From Spirosoma fluviale (GTDB lineage: Bacteria > Bacteroidota > Bacteroidia > Cytophagales > Spirosomataceae), in assembly GCF_900230225.1 (NCBI RefSeq), contig NZ_OCNH01000001.1, positions 2,418,001 through 2,482,000 on the forward strand: a stretch of 64,000 nucleotides of DNA. Reading direction: 5' to 3'. The notes beneath the pieces are model-generated. The model did not search any database, had not been told where the DNA came from, and worked only from the letters and a program-made list of their open reading frames with translations. The translations under genes and the position numbers were made by a program. Of this stretch, positions 31,077 through 39,326 are shown one piece after another. The stretch's first letter is position 1, and the number at the start of each line of letters is the position of its first letter.

Positions 31077-33266
31077 TTACTTCACAAAGAGCAATTCCCG
31101 GTACTTCACCAATGGCCAGTCTTCATCATCGACCACTTCTTCGAGTTTGTCCACTTCATAGCGGATCGGATCGAAGTGGTTCTTTACTTCAGTAGCGTAT
31201 AGTTTGGCGCGTTCGCGGGTATCGGTCACATTGTTGGCTTTCTTGCGCGACTCGATCATGGCTTCTACCCCTTTTTTGATGACAATGACGCGGGTCGAAA
31301 TTTCGCGCAGGATATCCTTGATCGGTTCGGCTTCGGCCGTCATGCCCAACTCCACCAGATTGCGGGCCGTTTCGGCCAGCTTGTTCTGGTATTTCAGAGC
31401 GGTCGATACCACGTGATTCATGGCCAGATCGCCCATCACGCGCGACTCGATCTGCACATTTTTGATGTACTTCTCCAGTTCAATTTCGTAGCGTGACTCC
31501 ACTTCGGCATGGTTCATGACGCCCGTCCGTTCGAACAGAGCCAATGATTCGGGCTGTACAAACACGCCCAACGCTTCCGGCGACGACTTGATGTTCGACA
31601 GTCCCCGGTTGGCGGCTTCTTCCACCCACTCATCAGAATATCCGTTTCCTTCGAAGAGAATTCTTTTTGAGTTGGCGTAGTAGTCTTTCAGGATGTCGAC
31701 AATCGCGAGTTCTTTCTTTTCGCCCCGTGCCAGACGGGCATCGAGATCAAATTTGAATTTATGTAGCTGATCGGCCACAATCGCATTCAAAACCGTCATG
31801 GTCGACGCCGAGTTCGCCGAACTCCCTACGGCCCGGAACTCAAATTTATTACCAGTAAAGGCAAATGGCGATGTTCGGTTACGGTCGGTATTGTCGCGCA
31901 TCAGGCTTGGGATCCGGTTCAGGCCCAGTTTGTAATACACATTATCGCCCTTGTTGACCGTTACTTCCGACTTCGTTTCCAGATCATTCAGGGTCTGGGT
32001 CAGTGCTTCGCCCAGGAATACGGACACGATGGCGGGCGGTGCTTCATTTGCCCCAAGGCGGTGCTCATTCCCGGCCGAGGCAATACTGGCCCGCAGTAAA
32101 TCGGCATTGTCGTGAACAGCCTTGACAACATTGACCAGGAACGTCAAAAACCGCAGACTTTCTTTTGGCTTGGTGCTGGGAGCCAGCAGATTCACGCCCG
32201 TATTGGTTCCCATCGACCAGTTGTTGTGCTTACCGGAGCCGTTGACACCGGCGAATGGTTTTTCGTGAAAAAGCACTTTCAGGTTATGCTTCTCGGAAAT
32301 TTTTTCCATCAAATCCATCAGCAGCGCGTTGTGGTCGACGGCCAGGTTGACCTCCTCAAACGTTGGTGCTACTTCAAACTGACCCGGAGCCACTTCGTTA
32401 TGCCGGGTTCGGACGGGCATACCGAGTTTCATGGATTCGAACTCAAAGTCGACCATAAACGCATTGACACGTGGAGGAATCGACCCAAAGTAATGGTCTT
32501 CCAGTTGTTGCCCACGGGCGGGTGCGTGCCCGAATACGGTACGACCCGCCAACACTAAATCAGGCCGGGCATAGAACAACGCCCGGTCAACGACGAAATA
32601 CTCCTGCTCAGGTCCGAGTGTTGGAGTTACTTTGGTAATGTTCCGGTCGAAATACTGACAAACGGCCGTGGCGGCTTTGTCCAGCGCATTCAGGGCTTTG
32701 AGCAGTGGCGTTTTGTAATCCAGTGCTTCGCCGGTATAGGAGATAAAGACGGAGGGAATGCACAGGGTTTTGCCCCCGGCCCCATTGTCCATCAAAAAAG
32801 CGGGCGACGACGGGTCCCAGCCGGTATACCCGCGCGCTTCGAAGGTATTACGAAGACCGCCGTTCGGGAACGACGACGCATCGGGCTCCTGCTGCACGAG
32901 GGCACTTCCTTTAAATTTCTCAACAGCTTTCCCCTCTACTGTGATATCAAAGAAGGCATCGTGTTTTTCGGCAGTTTCGCCGGTCAACGGCTGAAACCAG
33001 TGGGTATAGTGTGTAGCGCCTTTCGACGTGGCCCAAGATTTCATGGCGCCCGCCACTTCATCGGCGATGTTCCGGTCGATCTGACCATTGGTATTAATCG
33101 CTTCCGTAACTTTCAGATACGCTTCGGGCGACAGCAAGGCCCGCATCACTTCACTGTTGAAGGTGTAACTACCAAAAAAATCGCCGACGCGCTCAGTTGG
33201 TGCGGCTACCGGTACGGCGTGGCGAGTTTGAGCAACCTCAAGGGCTTTGAAACGAAAATTAGACAT
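31077..33266 (-). CDS. glnN: Glutamine synthetase type III
   Basis: Makes glutamine from glutamate, ammonia and ATP. At 729 residues it has the length of the GSIII family, which is common in Bacteroidota. Visible motifs: LGPEQEYFVVDRALF with the active-site glutamates, FHEKPFAGVNGSGKHNNWSM (ATP and glutamate site), GANEAPPAIVSVFLG, and RTSPFAFTGNKFEFRAVGSS near the C-terminal half. A TATGTTTG promoter box is 37 nt upstream at 33303-33310 on the minus strand. Upstream of the promoter lies a decayed copy of the type II enzyme gene end. Confidence 0.96.
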   Translation of the reverse strand: MSNFRFKALEVAQTRHAVPVAAPTERVGDFFGSYTFNSEVMRALLSPEAYLKVTEAINTNGQIDRNIADEVAGAMKSWATSKGATHYTHWFQPLTGETAEKHDAFFDITVEGKAVEKFKGSALVQQEPDASSFPNGGLRNTFEARGYTGWDPSSPAFLMDNGAGGKTLCIPSVFISYTGEALDYKTPLLKALNALDKAATAVCQYFDRNITKVTPTLGPEQEYFVVDRALFYARPDLVLAGRTVFGHAPARGQQLEDHYFGSIPPRVNAFMVDFEFESMKLGMPVRTRHNEVAPGQFEVAPTFEEVNLAVDHNALLMDLMEKISEKHNLKVLFHEKPFAGVNGSGKHNNWSMGTNTGVNLLAPSTKPKESLRFLTFLVNVVKAVHDNADLLRASIASAGNEHRLGANEAPPAIVSVFLGEALTQTLNDLETKSEVTVNKGDNVYYKLGLNRIPSLMRDNTDRNRTSPFAFTGNKFEFRAVGSSANSASTMTVLNAIVADQLHKFKFDLDARLARGEKKELAIVDILKDYYANSKRILFEGNGYSDEWVEEAANRGLSNIKSSPEALGVFVQPESLALFERTGVMNHAEVESRYEIELEKYIKNVQIESRVMGDLAMNHVVSTALKYQNKLAETARNLVELGMTAEAEPIKDILREISTRVIVIKKGVEAMIESRKKANNVTDTRERAKLYATEVKNHFDPIRYEVDKLEEVVDDEDWPLVKYRELLFVK

Positions 33267-33340: not shown

Positions 33341-33440
33341 AACAAAAAAGCCCGGCCATACTGGTAGCCGGGCTGATATATATAGGTTCTGATAAAGCTG
33401 TTTCCAGCACTTCAATCTAACGGTATTGATCATCATAGCC
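33341..33440 (-). pseudogene. Decayed 3' end and terminator of a type II glutamine synthetase gene
   Basis: Aligns in the same orientation with 34710-34813, the 3' end of the intact type II gene plus its terminator. The stem AGCCCGGC...GCCGGGCT with its A-run is shared, as are CTGTTTCCAG and TAACGGT.TTGAT.ATCA from the coding part. The gap in the coding part is three bases, one codon, as expected for a decayed coding copy. The reading frame no longer ends in the stop codon. The similarity fades near 33440. It is either a remnant of a tandem glutamine synthetase or a duplication made when the ATPase gene arrived. Confidence 0.65.
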
Positions 33441-33497
33441 TATAAATGCTGAAAGTAATAATTAAGCTGATCTCAATAAATATACTGATAACAAGAA

Positions 33498-33549
33498 ATA
33501 GCTGGTATATTAGCTGTATTAGCGCTAATACAGCTAATATACCAGCTAT
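33498..33549. repeat. Perfect 52-bp palindrome upstream of the ATPase gene
   Basis: Spacerless perfect palindrome with 26-bp arms centred between 33523 and 33524 (core TTAGCGCTAA). It ends 18 bp before the ATG of the ATPase. Each arm holds related words (TAGCTGGTATAT, TAGCTGTATTAG), so it may carry several half-sites for a dimeric regulator, or form a hairpin in the leader. Confidence 0.85.
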
Positions 33550-33567
33550 ATTAACCTTAAGAGCAAT

Positions 33568-34698
33568 ATGATTCCTCGTCTATTAGCAGATAGCCTTCGT
33601 CAACGCATTATTGACTCTAATAAAATTGTAATTTTGTATGGCCCTCGTCAGGTTGGCAAGACTACATTAATCCGAGAGTTGATTAACGAATTGCCTTACA
33701 AATCATTACAGGTTAGTGCTGACGAACTGCTGTATCAAACCGTTTTATCAGCGCGGGATTTAACCCGGATGAAGCTTCTGGTAGAAGGCTACGAACTACT
33801 TTTTATAGATGAGGCCCAACGTATTCCGGATATTGGTATAAACCTCAAGATTTTACACGATGGGCTCCCTAAGCTGAAGATTGTAGCAACAGGCTCCTCT
33901 TCTTTTGAATTGGCAAACCGAACCAAAGAAGCGTTAACAGGACGGACTTGGACGTACGAACTTTTCCCGATTTCGCTGGGCGAACTGCACCTTCAGCAAA
34001 ATGCATTCTCGTTAACGCAGCGCCTTGACGAACTACTTCGTTTTGGGTCTTATCCCGATACGCTTCAATTGCCCAACGCAACAGACAAGGTACGATACCT
34101 ACGCGAGCTATCGTCTGCCTATTTATACAAAGACATTCTGGAAATGGCCGCTATACGTCATGCGGATAAGCTTCGAAAACTTTTGCAACTCTTGTCCTTT
34201 CAGGTTGGCTCCGAAGTATCATTGAGCGAACTGGGAACCACGCTTGGTATGAGTAAAGACACAGTAAACACCTACATCGACCTCTTGGAAAAGGCATTTG
34301 TTGTGTTCCGTTTGTCTGGTTTTAGCCGCAATCTTAGAAAAGAAGTCAGCAAAATGGACAAGATTTATTTCTATGACCTCGGCATCCGCAATGTGCTCAT
34401 TGACAACTTCCAACCGCTCGATCTTCGAACAGATGTTGGAGCCTTATGGGAAAACTTTCTGGTAATTGAGCGTCGTAAGCGAAACGCGTACCAAGGGAAT
34501 TTTGTCAATACTTATTTCTGGCGAACCTACACGGGGGCCGAACTCGATTATATTGAGGAAAGTAATGGACAATTAGCTGGTGTTGAGTTTAAATTTTCGC
34601 GTAAACCATCCAAAGCACCAGCCTCCTGGACGGAGCATTACCCCGGCTCTACATTTCAGGTTATCAACCAGGATAACTACCTCTCTTTTCTATTGTGA
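33568..34698 (+). CDS. AAA-type ATPase with C-terminal DUF4143 domain
   Basis: Predicted P-loop ATPase of unknown role. Walker A is YGPRQVGKTTL (residues 24-34) and Walker B ELLFIDEAQRIPD (about 76-88), followed by the sensor-like IVATGSSSFELANR. From residue about 200 comes a winged-helix-like part (SLSELGTTLGMSKDTVNTYI) and then the DUF4143 region with DKIYFYDLGIRNVLI and WRTYTGAELDYIEE, which includes a nuclease-like acidic/lysine pattern (AGVEFKFSR). The gene is visibly more A+T-rich than its neighbours and reads against them, between direct repeats of a glutamine synthetase gene end. This suggests acquisition. Length (376) fits the family. Confidence 0.9.
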   Translation: MIPRLLADSLRQRIIDSNKIVILYGPRQVGKTTLIRELINELPYKSLQVSADELLYQTVLSARDLTRMKLLVEGYELLFIDEAQRIPDIGINLKILHDGLPKLKIVATGSSSFELANRTKEALTGRTWTYELFPISLGELHLQQNAFSLTQRLDELLRFGSYPDTLQLPNATDKVRYLRELSSAYLYKDILEMAAIRHADKLRKLLQLLSFQVGSEVSLSELGTTLGMSKDTVNTYIDLLEKAFVVFRLSGFSRNLRKEVSKMDKIYFYDLGIRNVLIDNFQPLDLRTDVGALWENFLVIERRKRNAYQGNFVNTYFWRTYTGAELDYIEESNGQLAGVEFKFSRKPSKAPASWTEHYPGSTFQVINQDNYLSFLL

Positions 34699-34712
34699 AC
34701 GAATTCATTAAC

Positions 34713-34743
34713 AAAAAAGCCCGGCCACTTTCGTAGCCGGGCT
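34713..34743 (-). terminator. Terminator of the type II glutamine synthetase gene
   Basis: Stem AGCCCGGC/GCCGGGCT (34718-34725, 34736-34743) followed on the minus strand by six T. It sits 22 bp past the stop at 34765 and also between this gene and the convergent ATPase gene. A near copy is at 33349-33374. Confidence 0.85.
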
Positions 34744-34764
34744 TAGAATATGTAATTGATCTGA

Positions 34765-35799
34765 CTAAACTGTTTCCAGAACGTCAGCAGATTTAACGGT
34801 TTTGATGATCACAGCGGCTACTTTGTAGGGATCAGCCGCCGAGTTTGGCCGGCGATCTTCCAACCAGCCTTTCCAGCCGCGCTCCACCGTTGCGATGGGG
34901 ATACGGATCGAAGCACCGCGGTCGGAGATACCGTACGAGAACTGATCGATCGACTGGGTTTCGTGCTTACCCGTCAGGCGAAGTTCGTTGTCAGCACCGT
35001 ACACGGCGATGTGCGCTTTGATGACATCGGCAGGTGAGAAAGACAAGCAAATTTTGTCGTATACTTCTTTGCTTCCCGATGTACGCAGGGCGGTGTTCGA
35101 GAAGTTAGCGTGCATACCCGAACCATTCCAGTCGGTAGCACCCAGTGGCTTACAATGCCAGTTGATCGAAACAGCGTATTTCTCACCGATACGCTCCAGC
35201 AGATAACGGGCTACCCAGATCTGGTCGCCAGCATCTTTAGCCCCTTTGGCAAAGATCTGGAACTCCCACTGGCCCGTAGCTACCTCAGCATTGATACCTT
35301 CAACATTTAAACCAGCCTCAAGACATACATCAAGGTGTTCTTCAACGATGTTCCGGCCATAGGCATTCTGAGCACCTACCGAGCAGTAATAAGGACCTTG
35401 TGGACGAGTTGGAAAGCCTTCAGCCGGGAAACCAAGTGGCTTGTCAATGGCCATATCCCACAGGAAGTACTCCTGCTCAAAGCCAAACCAGAAATCGTTA
35501 TCATCATCCTCGATCGTAGCCCGGCCATTCGTTACGTGTGGCGTACCATCTGCATTGAGGACTTCACACATAACTAGATAACCGTTCTTACGCTGTGGAT
35601 CAGGGCAGATGAAAACCGGCTTCAGCAAACAGTCGGACGAACCGCCCTCGGCCTGCTCGGTCGATGAACCATCGAACGACCACATAGGGCAATCTTCGAG
35701 ACTACCCGAGAAATCAGCCTCAATTTTAGTTTTGGAACGTAAGCTTTGGGTGGGCTTGTAGCCGTCGAGCCAAATGTATTCTAACTTAGCCTTTGCCAT
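34765..35799 (-). CDS. glnA: Glutamine synthetase type II (eukaryote-like)
   Basis: ATP-dependent glutamate-ammonia ligase. The 345-residue length and motifs fit GSII rather than the 470-residue bacterial GSI: WLDGYKPTQSLRSKT in the beta-grasp, PMWSFDGSSTEQAEGG, FGFEQEYFLWD, LGATDWNGSGMHANFSN, DRGASIRIP and WLEDRRPNSAADPYK. Start MAKAKLEY at 35799; a second Met three codons upstream (35808) is less likely. It has its own terminator at 34713-34743 and a TATATTTG promoter box at 35849-35856. It lies near a GSIII gene, so the organism has at least two types. Confidence 0.95.
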   Translation of the reverse strand: MAKAKLEYIWLDGYKPTQSLRSKTKIEADFSGSLEDCPMWSFDGSSTEQAEGGSSDCLLKPVFICPDPQRKNGYLVMCEVLNADGTPHVTNGRATIEDDDNDFWFGFEQEYFLWDMAIDKPLGFPAEGFPTRPQGPYYCSVGAQNAYGRNIVEEHLDVCLEAGLNVEGINAEVATGQWEFQIFAKGAKDAGDQIWVARYLLERIGEKYAVSINWHCKPLGATDWNGSGMHANFSNTALRTSGSKEVYDKICLSFSPADVIKAHIAVYGADNELRLTGKHETQSIDQFSYGISDRGASIRIPIATVERGWKGWLEDRRPNSAADPYKVAAVIIKTVKSADVLETV

Positions 35800-35848
35800 G
35801 ATGTACAAGTGGATTAATTGAATAGGGTTGTTCTCACAATACTTTCAG

Positions 35849-38321: not shown

Positions 38322-38383
38322 GTTAATGAATAATGGTTAATGAACCAGAGGAATAAACAACCACTCAACTATTATTCATTAAC
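38322..38383. repeat. Imperfect inverted repeat between aroQ and the Xer gene
   Basis: GTTAATGAATAAT at 38322-38334 and its perfect complement at 38371-38383, in a very A+T-rich 100-bp gap between divergent genes. The surrounding TTAATG/ATTCATT words repeat several times. May hold both promoters. Confidence 0.5.
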
Positions 38384-38408
38384 AATTATAAATTATTCAT
38401 TCACTCCT

Positions 38409-39326
38409 ATGTGGCAAAGTTATATAAACGCCTTTAAGAACTACCTCAAACTAGAACGGTCGCTGGCCGAAAATTCGGTGGAGGCCTATCTGCATGATGC
38501 CGAAAAACTGTACGAATACATACTGCTGACCGACCCCGCCCGGACGCCCATGCAGGTTACGGAGAAGGAGCTGATGAACTTCCTGAAGTATCTGGGTGAG
38601 TTGGGTTTATCGGCGCACAGCCAGGCCCGGATGCTGTCGGGTATAAAATCGTTTTTCAAATACTTATTGCTAGAAGGGTTAATCCAGCGTGACCCTACTC
38701 AGTTACTGGAATCGCCCAAACTGGGCCGAAAACTTCCCGACACGCTTAGTTTTCCCGAAATTGAAGACATACTGGCCGCCATCGACCTCTCCACCCCCGG
38801 CGGCACCCGCGATCGTGCCATGCTGGAAGTTCTTTACAGTTCAGGACTGCGCGTGTCTGAACTGCTCAATCTCCGCCTGACAAACTGTTTTTTTACCGAA
38901 GGTTTCGTGCGCGTTCTGGGAAAAGGCGACAAAGTACGGCTGGTACCCATTGGCGAAGATGCCATGCATTATACCCGTATTTATGTGGAACACGTTCGGC
39001 AAAAGCTGGATGTACAGAAGGGCGATGAGGACACGATTTTCCTCAATCTACGCGGCAAACAGCTTTCGCGCATTTCGGTCTTTACGACCATCAAAAAACT
39101 GGCATCTGAGGTGGGTATCAAAAAGACGATCAGCCCCCACACCTTCCGGCATTCGTTCGCGACGCACCTTATTGAAGGGGGCGCTGATTTACGGGCCGTC
39201 CAGCAGATGCTTGGCCATGAGTCCATCACAACCACCGAAATCTACACCCACCTGGATCGCGATTATTTACAGCAGACTTTAAAAGAGTATCACCCTAGAG
39301 CAAAGGGACAGCGGGTGCAGCGGTAA
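38409..39326 (+). CDS. xerD: Tyrosine recombinase XerC/XerD type
   Basis: Site-specific recombinase, most likely the chromosome-dimer resolution enzyme. An N-terminal SAM-like core-binding domain (residues 1-100, ENSVEAYLHDAEKLYEYIL) precedes the catalytic domain. Catalytic residues: Arg148 in SSGLRVSELL, Lys172 in GKGDKVR, His244 and Arg247 in HTFRHSFATH, His270 in MLGHESITTT and nucleophile Tyr279 in EIYTHL. Start MWQSYINAFK at 38409 is chosen; the longer frame from 38340 overlaps the divergent gap. XerC and XerD cannot be told apart here, so the symbol is provisional. Confidence 0.9.
   Translation: MWQSYINAFKNYLKLERSLAENSVEAYLHDAEKLYEYILLTDPARTPMQVTEKELMNFLKYLGELGLSAHSQARMLSGIKSFFKYLLLEGLIQRDPTQLLESPKLGRKLPDTLSFPEIEDILAAIDLSTPGGTRDRAMLEVLYSSGLRVSELLNLRLTNCFFTEGFVRVLGKGDKVRLVPIGEDAMHYTRIYVEHVRQKLDVQKGDEDTIFLNLRGKQLSRISVFTTIKKLASEVGIKKTISPHTFRHSFATHLIEGGADLRAVQQMLGHESITTTEIYTHLDRDYLQQTLKEYHPRAKGQRVQR

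Follow-up and report, generated by a model that had tools for sequence, protein, structure and literature searches.

A 64,000-nucleotide (nt) stretch of the Spirosoma fluviale genome (contig NZ_OCNH01000001.1, positions 2,418,001 to 2,482,000 of the forward strand; hereafter the window) carries, between the glutamine synthetase genes glnA and glnN, a unit of about 1.27 kb made up of a palindromic region and a single gene for an AAA_14-DUF4143 ATPase of the type named PDC-S01. The 3' end of glnA lies on both sides of this unit, and we consider it probable that the unit entered the end of the gene by insertion with long target duplication. Direct repeats, empty sites in relatives, unit boundaries, a palindrome upstream of the ATPase gene and the same footprint around other cargo were all observed. 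The window is part of a 7.8-Mb genome, designated G000.

The repeated glnA end and its site in relatives

The features of the region, in window coordinates, with the evidence for each in brackets, are as follows.

31077-33266, minus strand: glnN, type III glutamine synthetase (open reading frame [ORF]; Pfam GSIII_N and Gln-synt_C-ter)
33341-33440: left repeat, a decayed and apparently displaced glnA 3' end with terminator, beside glnN (direct repeat; terminator-like site at 33349-33374)
33441-33567, plus strand: upstream part of the putatively inserted unit, 28% G+C, containing the palindrome (no significant glnA match)
33498-33549: perfect 52-bp palindrome, 26-nt arms, no loop, single in the genome
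33568-34698, plus strand: AAA_14-DUF4143 gene (PDC-S01), 376 amino acids (ORF, Pfam, PADLOC profile, AlphaFold model)
34699-34709, plus strand: 11 nt from the stop codon to the right repeat, the right edge of the unit (sequence)
34710-34815: right repeat, the intact glnA 3' end with terminator (direct repeat; terminator-like site at 34717-34744)
34765-35808, minus strand: glnA, type II glutamine synthetase, the target gene, intact (ORF; Pfam Gln-synt_N and Gln-synt_C)

Between the two copies of the glnA end the unit thus comprises 127 nt upstream, an ORF of 1131 nt and 11 nt downstream, and the displaced copy sits in the upstream region of glnN. The repeat search matched the copies over 34 nt at 88% and 39 nt at 74%, and as a single alignment of 106 columns they are 75% identical (E value 5e-16). 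Their local alignment score was 114, against a maximum of 41 among 200 shuffles, and the consensus pattern of the terminator stem, allowing up to two mismatches, occurs nowhere else in the genome than at the right copy. Chance similarity and a genome-wide terminator repeat were rejected on these grounds. Rfam matched nothing in the interval at gathering thresholds.

An earlier note on this DNA had described the glnA 3' end and its terminator as present in a second, decayed copy, in the same orientation and with the stem kept. The repeat itself stands: the alignment that the note proposed outscores all 200 shuffles, and a terminator-like stem was detected in both copies. Several details had to be corrected, in that the palindrome went unmentioned and the coding part has a main gap of four bases and not exactly three, so that the left remnant is also frame-shifted. 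The note correctly placed a single, A+T-rich ATPase gene on the strand opposite to glnA, this being the sole ORF of at least 80 amino acids wholly between the copies, with a G+C content of 0.441 (glnA 0.513, the window 0.516). Its statement that no integrase is present is true of the unit, which contains no recombinase ORF, and not of the neighborhood. An intact tyrosine recombinase gene lies at 38340-39326 (Pfam Phage_integrase, 2.6e-46), about 3.5 kb from the right repeat, and is probably a XerC/D-like housekeeping gene.

Some match to glnN was found in 34 of 36 genomes of the genus, and 33 glnN loci were examined (the window and 32 others). In 17 of them glnA and the glnN gene that follows it lie 131-190 nt apart with no ATPase gene, and every one of these 17 empty intervals has a single copy of the glnA end and lacks an internal repeat. 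G027 and G009, which by glnN are the two nearest relatives (98%), are both empty. The note had suggested looking for close relatives that lack both the ATPase and one copy of the repeat as support for insertion, and these 17 loci give that support. ATPases that are 82-100% identical lie between glnA and glnN at five loci (G000, G035, G001, G021 and G014), while the broken, more distant AAA_14-DUF4143 gene found there in G029 (L082) is a further arrival at the site. Seven loci (G004, G005, G016, G017, G032, G033 and G034) have longer stretches without an ATPase match, and in three (G008, G010 and G030) the stretch covered did not show glnA next to glnN. The stretches in G004 and G005 (L070 and L071), of about 4.8 and 7 kb and without this ATPase, are bounded by terminator-like hairpins that by eye are near-identical.

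The congeners include Spirosoma panaciterrae, whose L141 is the G014 locus (identical over 4128 nt). G014 has a glnA-end repeat of its own, of 134 columns at 87%, with a local score of 205 against a shuffle maximum of 52. When G001 and G021 are compared with G014 at 4-fold sites, glnA differs at 19-23% and the ATPases at 59-60%. Since the divergence of the ATPases is far above that of glnA, the sequences point to a site that has been taken more than once by separate acquisitions, or one whose ATPase has been replaced. A gradient of glnA divergence toward the 3' end, sought as a sign of end replacement, is present when G014 is set against G001/G021 and absent when G000 is set against G027.

The noncoding part of the repeat (54-57 nt) was also compared with that of G027, where the allele is empty. 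The score against this allele is 84 for the left copy and 74 for the right copy, and the two copies score 57 against each other. Because the left copy is nearer to the G027 empty allele than to the right copy, it is best read as the displaced glnA end of the resident allele; an older insertion later lost in G027 would give a similar picture.

A second site of this kind lies between an SNF2-type helicase gene and a GFO/IDH/MocA gene. It is filled in G009, with a repeat of the MocA 3' end, and empty in G027, where about 53 nt separate the two genes. In G022 (L248, 3391-5430) an SNF2-type gene end with a palindrome recurs after an ATPase gene and two small ORFs; between this second palindrome and the MocA-type gene there is no ATPase. 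A hairpin resembling repetitive extragenic palindromic (REP) elements at a MocA-type gene end (L058, 1390-1492 and 2858-2934) matches many places in G009, G000 and G027.

Units around related ATPases and toxin-antitoxin modules

The family set consisted of 150 AAA_14-DUF4143 loci (30, 40 and 80 from separate searches), which are the best search matches and not a random sample, and in which one locus is counted twice (L037 is L141). Flanking direct repeats were scored in the 140 loci with at least 300 nt on each side, at an E value of at most 1e-5 and within 400 nt, with the ordinary ORFs of the same loci as control. Repeats flank 19 of the 140 ATPase genes, or 18 of 139 without the duplicate locus, and only one of 233 ordinary ORFs (47 nt; Fisher 1e-7 against 18/139). 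Ten of the 18 repeats are 61-185 nt long and non-palindromic (L033, L037, L058, L140, L142, L161, L162, L166, L167 and L190). A hold-out of 28 new ATPase loci, 41-51% identical to the query, gave repeats of 48-107 nt in six of 27, a count compared with the one in 233 ordinary ORFs of the first set, as the hold-out had no control ORFs of its own for repeats. The repeated gene ends that were identified are those of glnA, a GFO/IDH/MocA gene (L058, by Pfam), pgk (L167) and, as a 5' end, a UDP-GlcNAc 2-epimerase gene (L162). The repeated end may thus be the 3' or the 5' end of a gene, and the target genes are many and unrelated. Near-identical copies occur in L162 (98.5% over 136 nt) and L331 (98.8% over 165 nt). 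Inverted repeats across the unit did not score above shuffles in 27 of 30 loci, and did so in L037, L054 and L058. Such genes also form clusters: in nine of the 150 loci (L112, L154, L168, L170, L197, L199, L212, L216 and L220) further AAA_14-DUF4143 matches, some of them partial, lie no more than a few kb from the first. A second DUF4143 gene in the genome of the window (G000:C4:469409-469879) is about 31% identical to the one at glnA.

The edges of the unit could be located by comparing loci. In ten locus pairs whose DNA is 72-83% alike, the alignment ends at the unit edges, beginning about 40-140 nt upstream of the family match and stopping no more than about 10 nt from where that match ends (for example, -68 to +5 in L165/L171 and -80 to +10 in L191/L192). 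One of the ten, L053/L058, involves the same SNF2-type gene in two genomes, with different junctions; other pairs in the same DNA comparison share one or both flanks. A similar layout lies between the repeats of L162, L167, L191 and L338, namely 90-154 nt, one ORF, and then 5-21 nt from the stop codon to the right repeat (5 in L191, 9 in L338, 12 in L167 and 21 in L162). L331 is looser, with 319 nt and 229 nt flanking the ORF between the repeats.

The palindrome at 33498-33549 ends 18 nt before the ATPase start codon and occurs once in the genome; the RNA fold of 33490-33580 has an energy of -37.3 kcal/mol (z -8.5). Palindromes with a score of at least 16 were found within 150 nt upstream of 34 of 145 ATPase genes, as against none of 175 control ORFs and none of 145 shuffles, and in the hold-out they preceded five of 28 ATPase genes and none of 16 controls. 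In these 34 loci the edge of the palindrome lies a median of 16.5 nt before the start codon, and this closeness suggests that the ATPase may control its own gene through the palindrome. The arms vary in sequence and remain complementary, L053 and L058 differing by a compensated pair. The core AATTNNCGNNAATT, which was read by eye from the very loci in which it was counted, is present exactly in 23 of 146 upstream regions, one of 147 downstream regions and none of 177 control ORFs (shuffles expect 0.05), and with one mismatch in 57 of 146 upstream regions and four of 177 control ORFs. Nearly all of the one-mismatch cores belong to ATPases at least 50% identical to a query (54/96); only two of 35 loci of 40-50% identity, the class into which the hold-out loci fall, have the core, and the window's own palindrome is outside the 57. 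In L105, L122, L179 and L181 the palindrome is present on both sides, as if marking both unit ends.

The encoded protein matches AAA_14 and DUF4143 in Pfam and, over residues 1-375, the PADLOC profile PDLC04789 of the phage defence candidate PDC-S01 (E value 8.3e-150). It consists of an AAA+ ATPase domain, a helical middle resembling a helix-turn-helix, and a PD-(D/E)XK-like C-terminus. The AlphaFold model (predicted local distance difference test score of 90) has a C-terminal core of alpha-beta-beta-beta-alpha-beta. The Walker A motif, DEAQ, E295, D327 and E340-x-K342 are conserved, and among 30 sequences E340 is nearly invariant while E295, D327 and K342 are invariant. On that fold these four residues form what we take to be the pattern expected of PD-(D/E)XK enzymes, so the modeled C-terminus has the PD-(D/E)XK core and is predicted to be nuclease-like. 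An ATPase fused to PD-(D/E)XK is also what PMC12988326 states for PDC-S01. Among solved structures, a sequence search found only distant matches of the AAA type (best E value 1.3e-4, among the best 60 of 109), NCBIfam gave only RuvB matches below the cut-off, and PHROGs only weak clamp-loader-like matches.

Toxin-antitoxin modules of the same genus served as a control for the footprint, with 30 HicA loci (28 usable) and 30 ParE loci (27 usable). Flanking repeats were found in three of the 28 HicA and six of the 27 ParE loci. The combined rate, 9/55 in windows of 500 nt, does not differ from the 18/139 for ATPase loci in windows of 400 nt (p 0.65). These repeats fall at three places: the ends of a carbamoyltransferase gene (L267 and L269, Pfam being run on L269), an SNF2-type gene, and a prephenate dehydrogenase gene. 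The last accounts for the six ParE loci, with repeats of 25-61 nt; the gene was identified by Pfam on L303, and the other ParE loci share its C-terminal residues. Because all nine repeat-bearing loci fall at three places, they represent few events. The SNF2-type case is in the genome of the window (G000:C6, near 111,100-111,800; L244 and L284), where a HicB-HicA-like pair lies between two copies of the gene's 3' end; the HicA at L284 has an in-frame stop, and the HicB-like ORF has no Pfam match. ATPase genes and toxin-antitoxin modules also occur stacked at one target. In L162 the 5' end of the UDP-GlcNAc 2-epimerase gene is present four times, and the copies are separated by the ATPase, by a module whose ORF looks PIN-like by eye and gives no Pfam match, and by a module in which Pfam detects a PIN domain. 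In L167 the pgk 3' end occurs three times, and between the copies lie the ATPase and a PIN-type pair, of which one ORF matches PIN_3 and the other nothing in Pfam. Since HicAB, ParDE and PIN-type modules share the footprint, it is not made by the ATPase alone, and in view of this control a single-gene element driven by the ATPase alone counts only as a rival. The upstream palindrome, unlike the repeat footprint, is specific to the ATPase family: with windows of 500 nt on both sides, palindromes were found in 41 of 137 ATPase loci as against four of 55 toxin-antitoxin loci.

Alternative routes to the glnA footprint

The explanation that we hold probable is that a self-contained unit inserted at the 3' end of glnA and duplicated the gene end and terminator. 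The gene would have stayed intact because its end flanks the unit on both sides, and the resident's old gene end and terminator would have been pushed beside glnN, there to decay. The donor may have been DNA of a related bacterium that carried a glnA 3' end, terminator and ATPase gene in that order and entered glnA on one side by homologous recombination, the other side having been joined, with little homology, somewhere in the final ~50 nt of the glnA coding sequence. The ATPase would probably serve as a defence module or an addiction-like one, binding its own palindrome and controlling its own expression there. It need not catalyze its own insertion, because toxin-antitoxin modules insert with the same footprint; modules of both the PDC-S01 and the toxin-antitoxin type seem to spread as self-contained inserts.

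A number of points weigh against insertion with long target duplication. At the threshold used, 121 of the 139 ATPase loci have no repeat, so that either repeats decay or insertion often leaves none. Of the 18 that have one, four repeat the palindrome itself on both sides of the ATPase ORF (L105, L122, L179 and L181) and four have only terminator-like matches of 33-38 nt (L035, L036, L046 and L177), and one hold-out repeat (L344) covers the palindrome region. At the glnA site itself, G035 has no significant flanking repeat, and only a terminator match of 35-38 nt is left in G001 and G021, with scores at the shuffle maximum (60 vs 61 and 55 vs 56) that fall above or below it with other shuffles. 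The glnA genes of G000 and G027 show no excess divergence at the 3' end, and the comparison of left copy, right copy and G027 covers only about 55 nt. We infer the recombination route with one-sided homology, and we likewise infer movement by comparing the sequences of different species and not of strains of one species.

Both copies might instead derive from the resident gene end, by target-site duplication through staggered breaks. The near-identical copies at L162 and L331 favor such breaks, as do the copies in G014, which by eye are more alike than either is to the ends in G001 and G021; the noncoding copies in the window are less alike than either is to the G027 copy, unless the insertion predates the G027 split and was lost in G027, and we think this origin unlikely. 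We find it rather improbable that the unit homes in the manner of the yeast WHO elements, the ATPase-nuclease cutting the gene end of an empty allele and repair then copying the unit, replacing the 3' end and displacing the old one. The anatomy is the same, with a nuclease-like gene beside its target, a displaced end and stacks (PMC7282813, in the part available), the nuclease and ATPase motifs are conserved, and the left copy resembles the resident allele. Against this, HicAB, ParDE and PIN modules without the ATPase carry like repeats at a like rate (9/55 vs 18/139), and the targets are many unrelated genes. It is similarly doubtful that PDC-S01 is a minimal selfish element, a gene with its cognate palindrome, that itself opens or cuts gene ends. 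If it were, neighboring toxin-antitoxin modules would use the same break, inserting with the duplicated gene end, and the frequent embedding of PDC-S01 in defence loci would reflect mobility rather than immunity. We know of no anti-phage test of PDC-S01.

Of the earlier note's interpretation the insertion is supported and neither of the two routes that it offered is. It had pointed to integrative elements that target gene 3' ends. Such an element, using a tyrosine or serine recombinase, would account for a duplicated 3' end beside an intact gene, and a tyrosine recombinase gene lies about 3.5 kb away. That gene, probably a housekeeping XerC/D, is not within the repeats, the unit has no recombinase ORF, the long repeats range in length from 61 to 185 nt, 5' gene ends are used too, and toxin-antitoxin modules have the same footprint; we consider such an element very unlikely. 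The other route was a lost tandem glutamine synthetase, a second glnA mostly deleted down to its 3' end, with the ATPase arriving separately. Tandem gene duplication and loss are common in general. All 17 empty relatives have one copy, the interval holds no glnA sequence apart from about 50 coding nt, and related ATPases have the same footprint at other, unrelated genes, making this route most improbable.

Comparison with known systems

The fold of the ATPase recalls RuvB and the AAA ATPase PABY2304 (2qen). All share the AAA+ fold, and 2qen aligns over 362 columns (Foldseek), with template modeling (TM) scores by query length of 0.24-0.51 and identities of 11-20% among the matches listed; in the model this is a resemblance of fold and not membership. 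The protein does match the PDC-S01 profile PDLC04789 and shares with PDC-S01 the ATPase fused to PD-(D/E)XK. According to PMC12988326, PDC-S01 was put forward because of its neighbors in genomes and ranks fourth in frequency among the defences of prokaryotes. The difference is that this literature treats PDC-S01 as immunity, recognized by its embedding in defence loci, whereas here the gene appears as a small, self-contained mobile module with a palindrome. No paper on the mobility of the AAA_14-DUF4143/PDC-S01 family was found in the open-licence PMC literature, a search that did not include the preprint defining PDC-S01.

The yeast WHO elements, according to the accessible part of PMC7282813, are alike in having a gene beside the target, a displaced and decaying gene end, and insertion stacks. 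They differ in that WHO proteins are intein-zinc finger fusions whose cleavage was shown in yeast, whereas here a nuclease role is predicted, and membership of the WHO type fails, by an indirect test, because toxin-antitoxin modules without the ATPase make the same footprint.

Insertion with long target duplication has been described for restriction-modification genes, notably those of Helicobacter pylori (PMC1643837, PMC4978471, PMC3874152, PMC3031569; Nobusato et al. 2000, Gene 259:99, as cited in PMC1643837 and PMC3874152). As these sources present it in the parts available, a module without a known mobile element is flanked by variable direct target repeats of the order of 100 bp and the empty site has a single copy, as in 17 of 17 cases here; here too the unit has no recombinase and the repeat length is variable. 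The cargo differs, being a PDC-S01 gene with its palindrome, and toxin-antitoxin modules, sometimes stacked, and most cases here are from Bacteroidota; the open-licence PMC literature yielded no paper linking this process to Bacteroidetes. The glnA insert fits insertion with long target duplication better than either route of the earlier note, as a known process with new cargo. The footprint shared with toxin-antitoxin modules offers an alternative reason for the defence neighbors of PDC-S01, and self-contained insertion should be weighed before PDC-S01 is counted as immunity. How small modules without transposases move is a long-standing question, and the bounded units, empty sites, stacks and recurrent palindrome provide handles on it in a new set of organisms.

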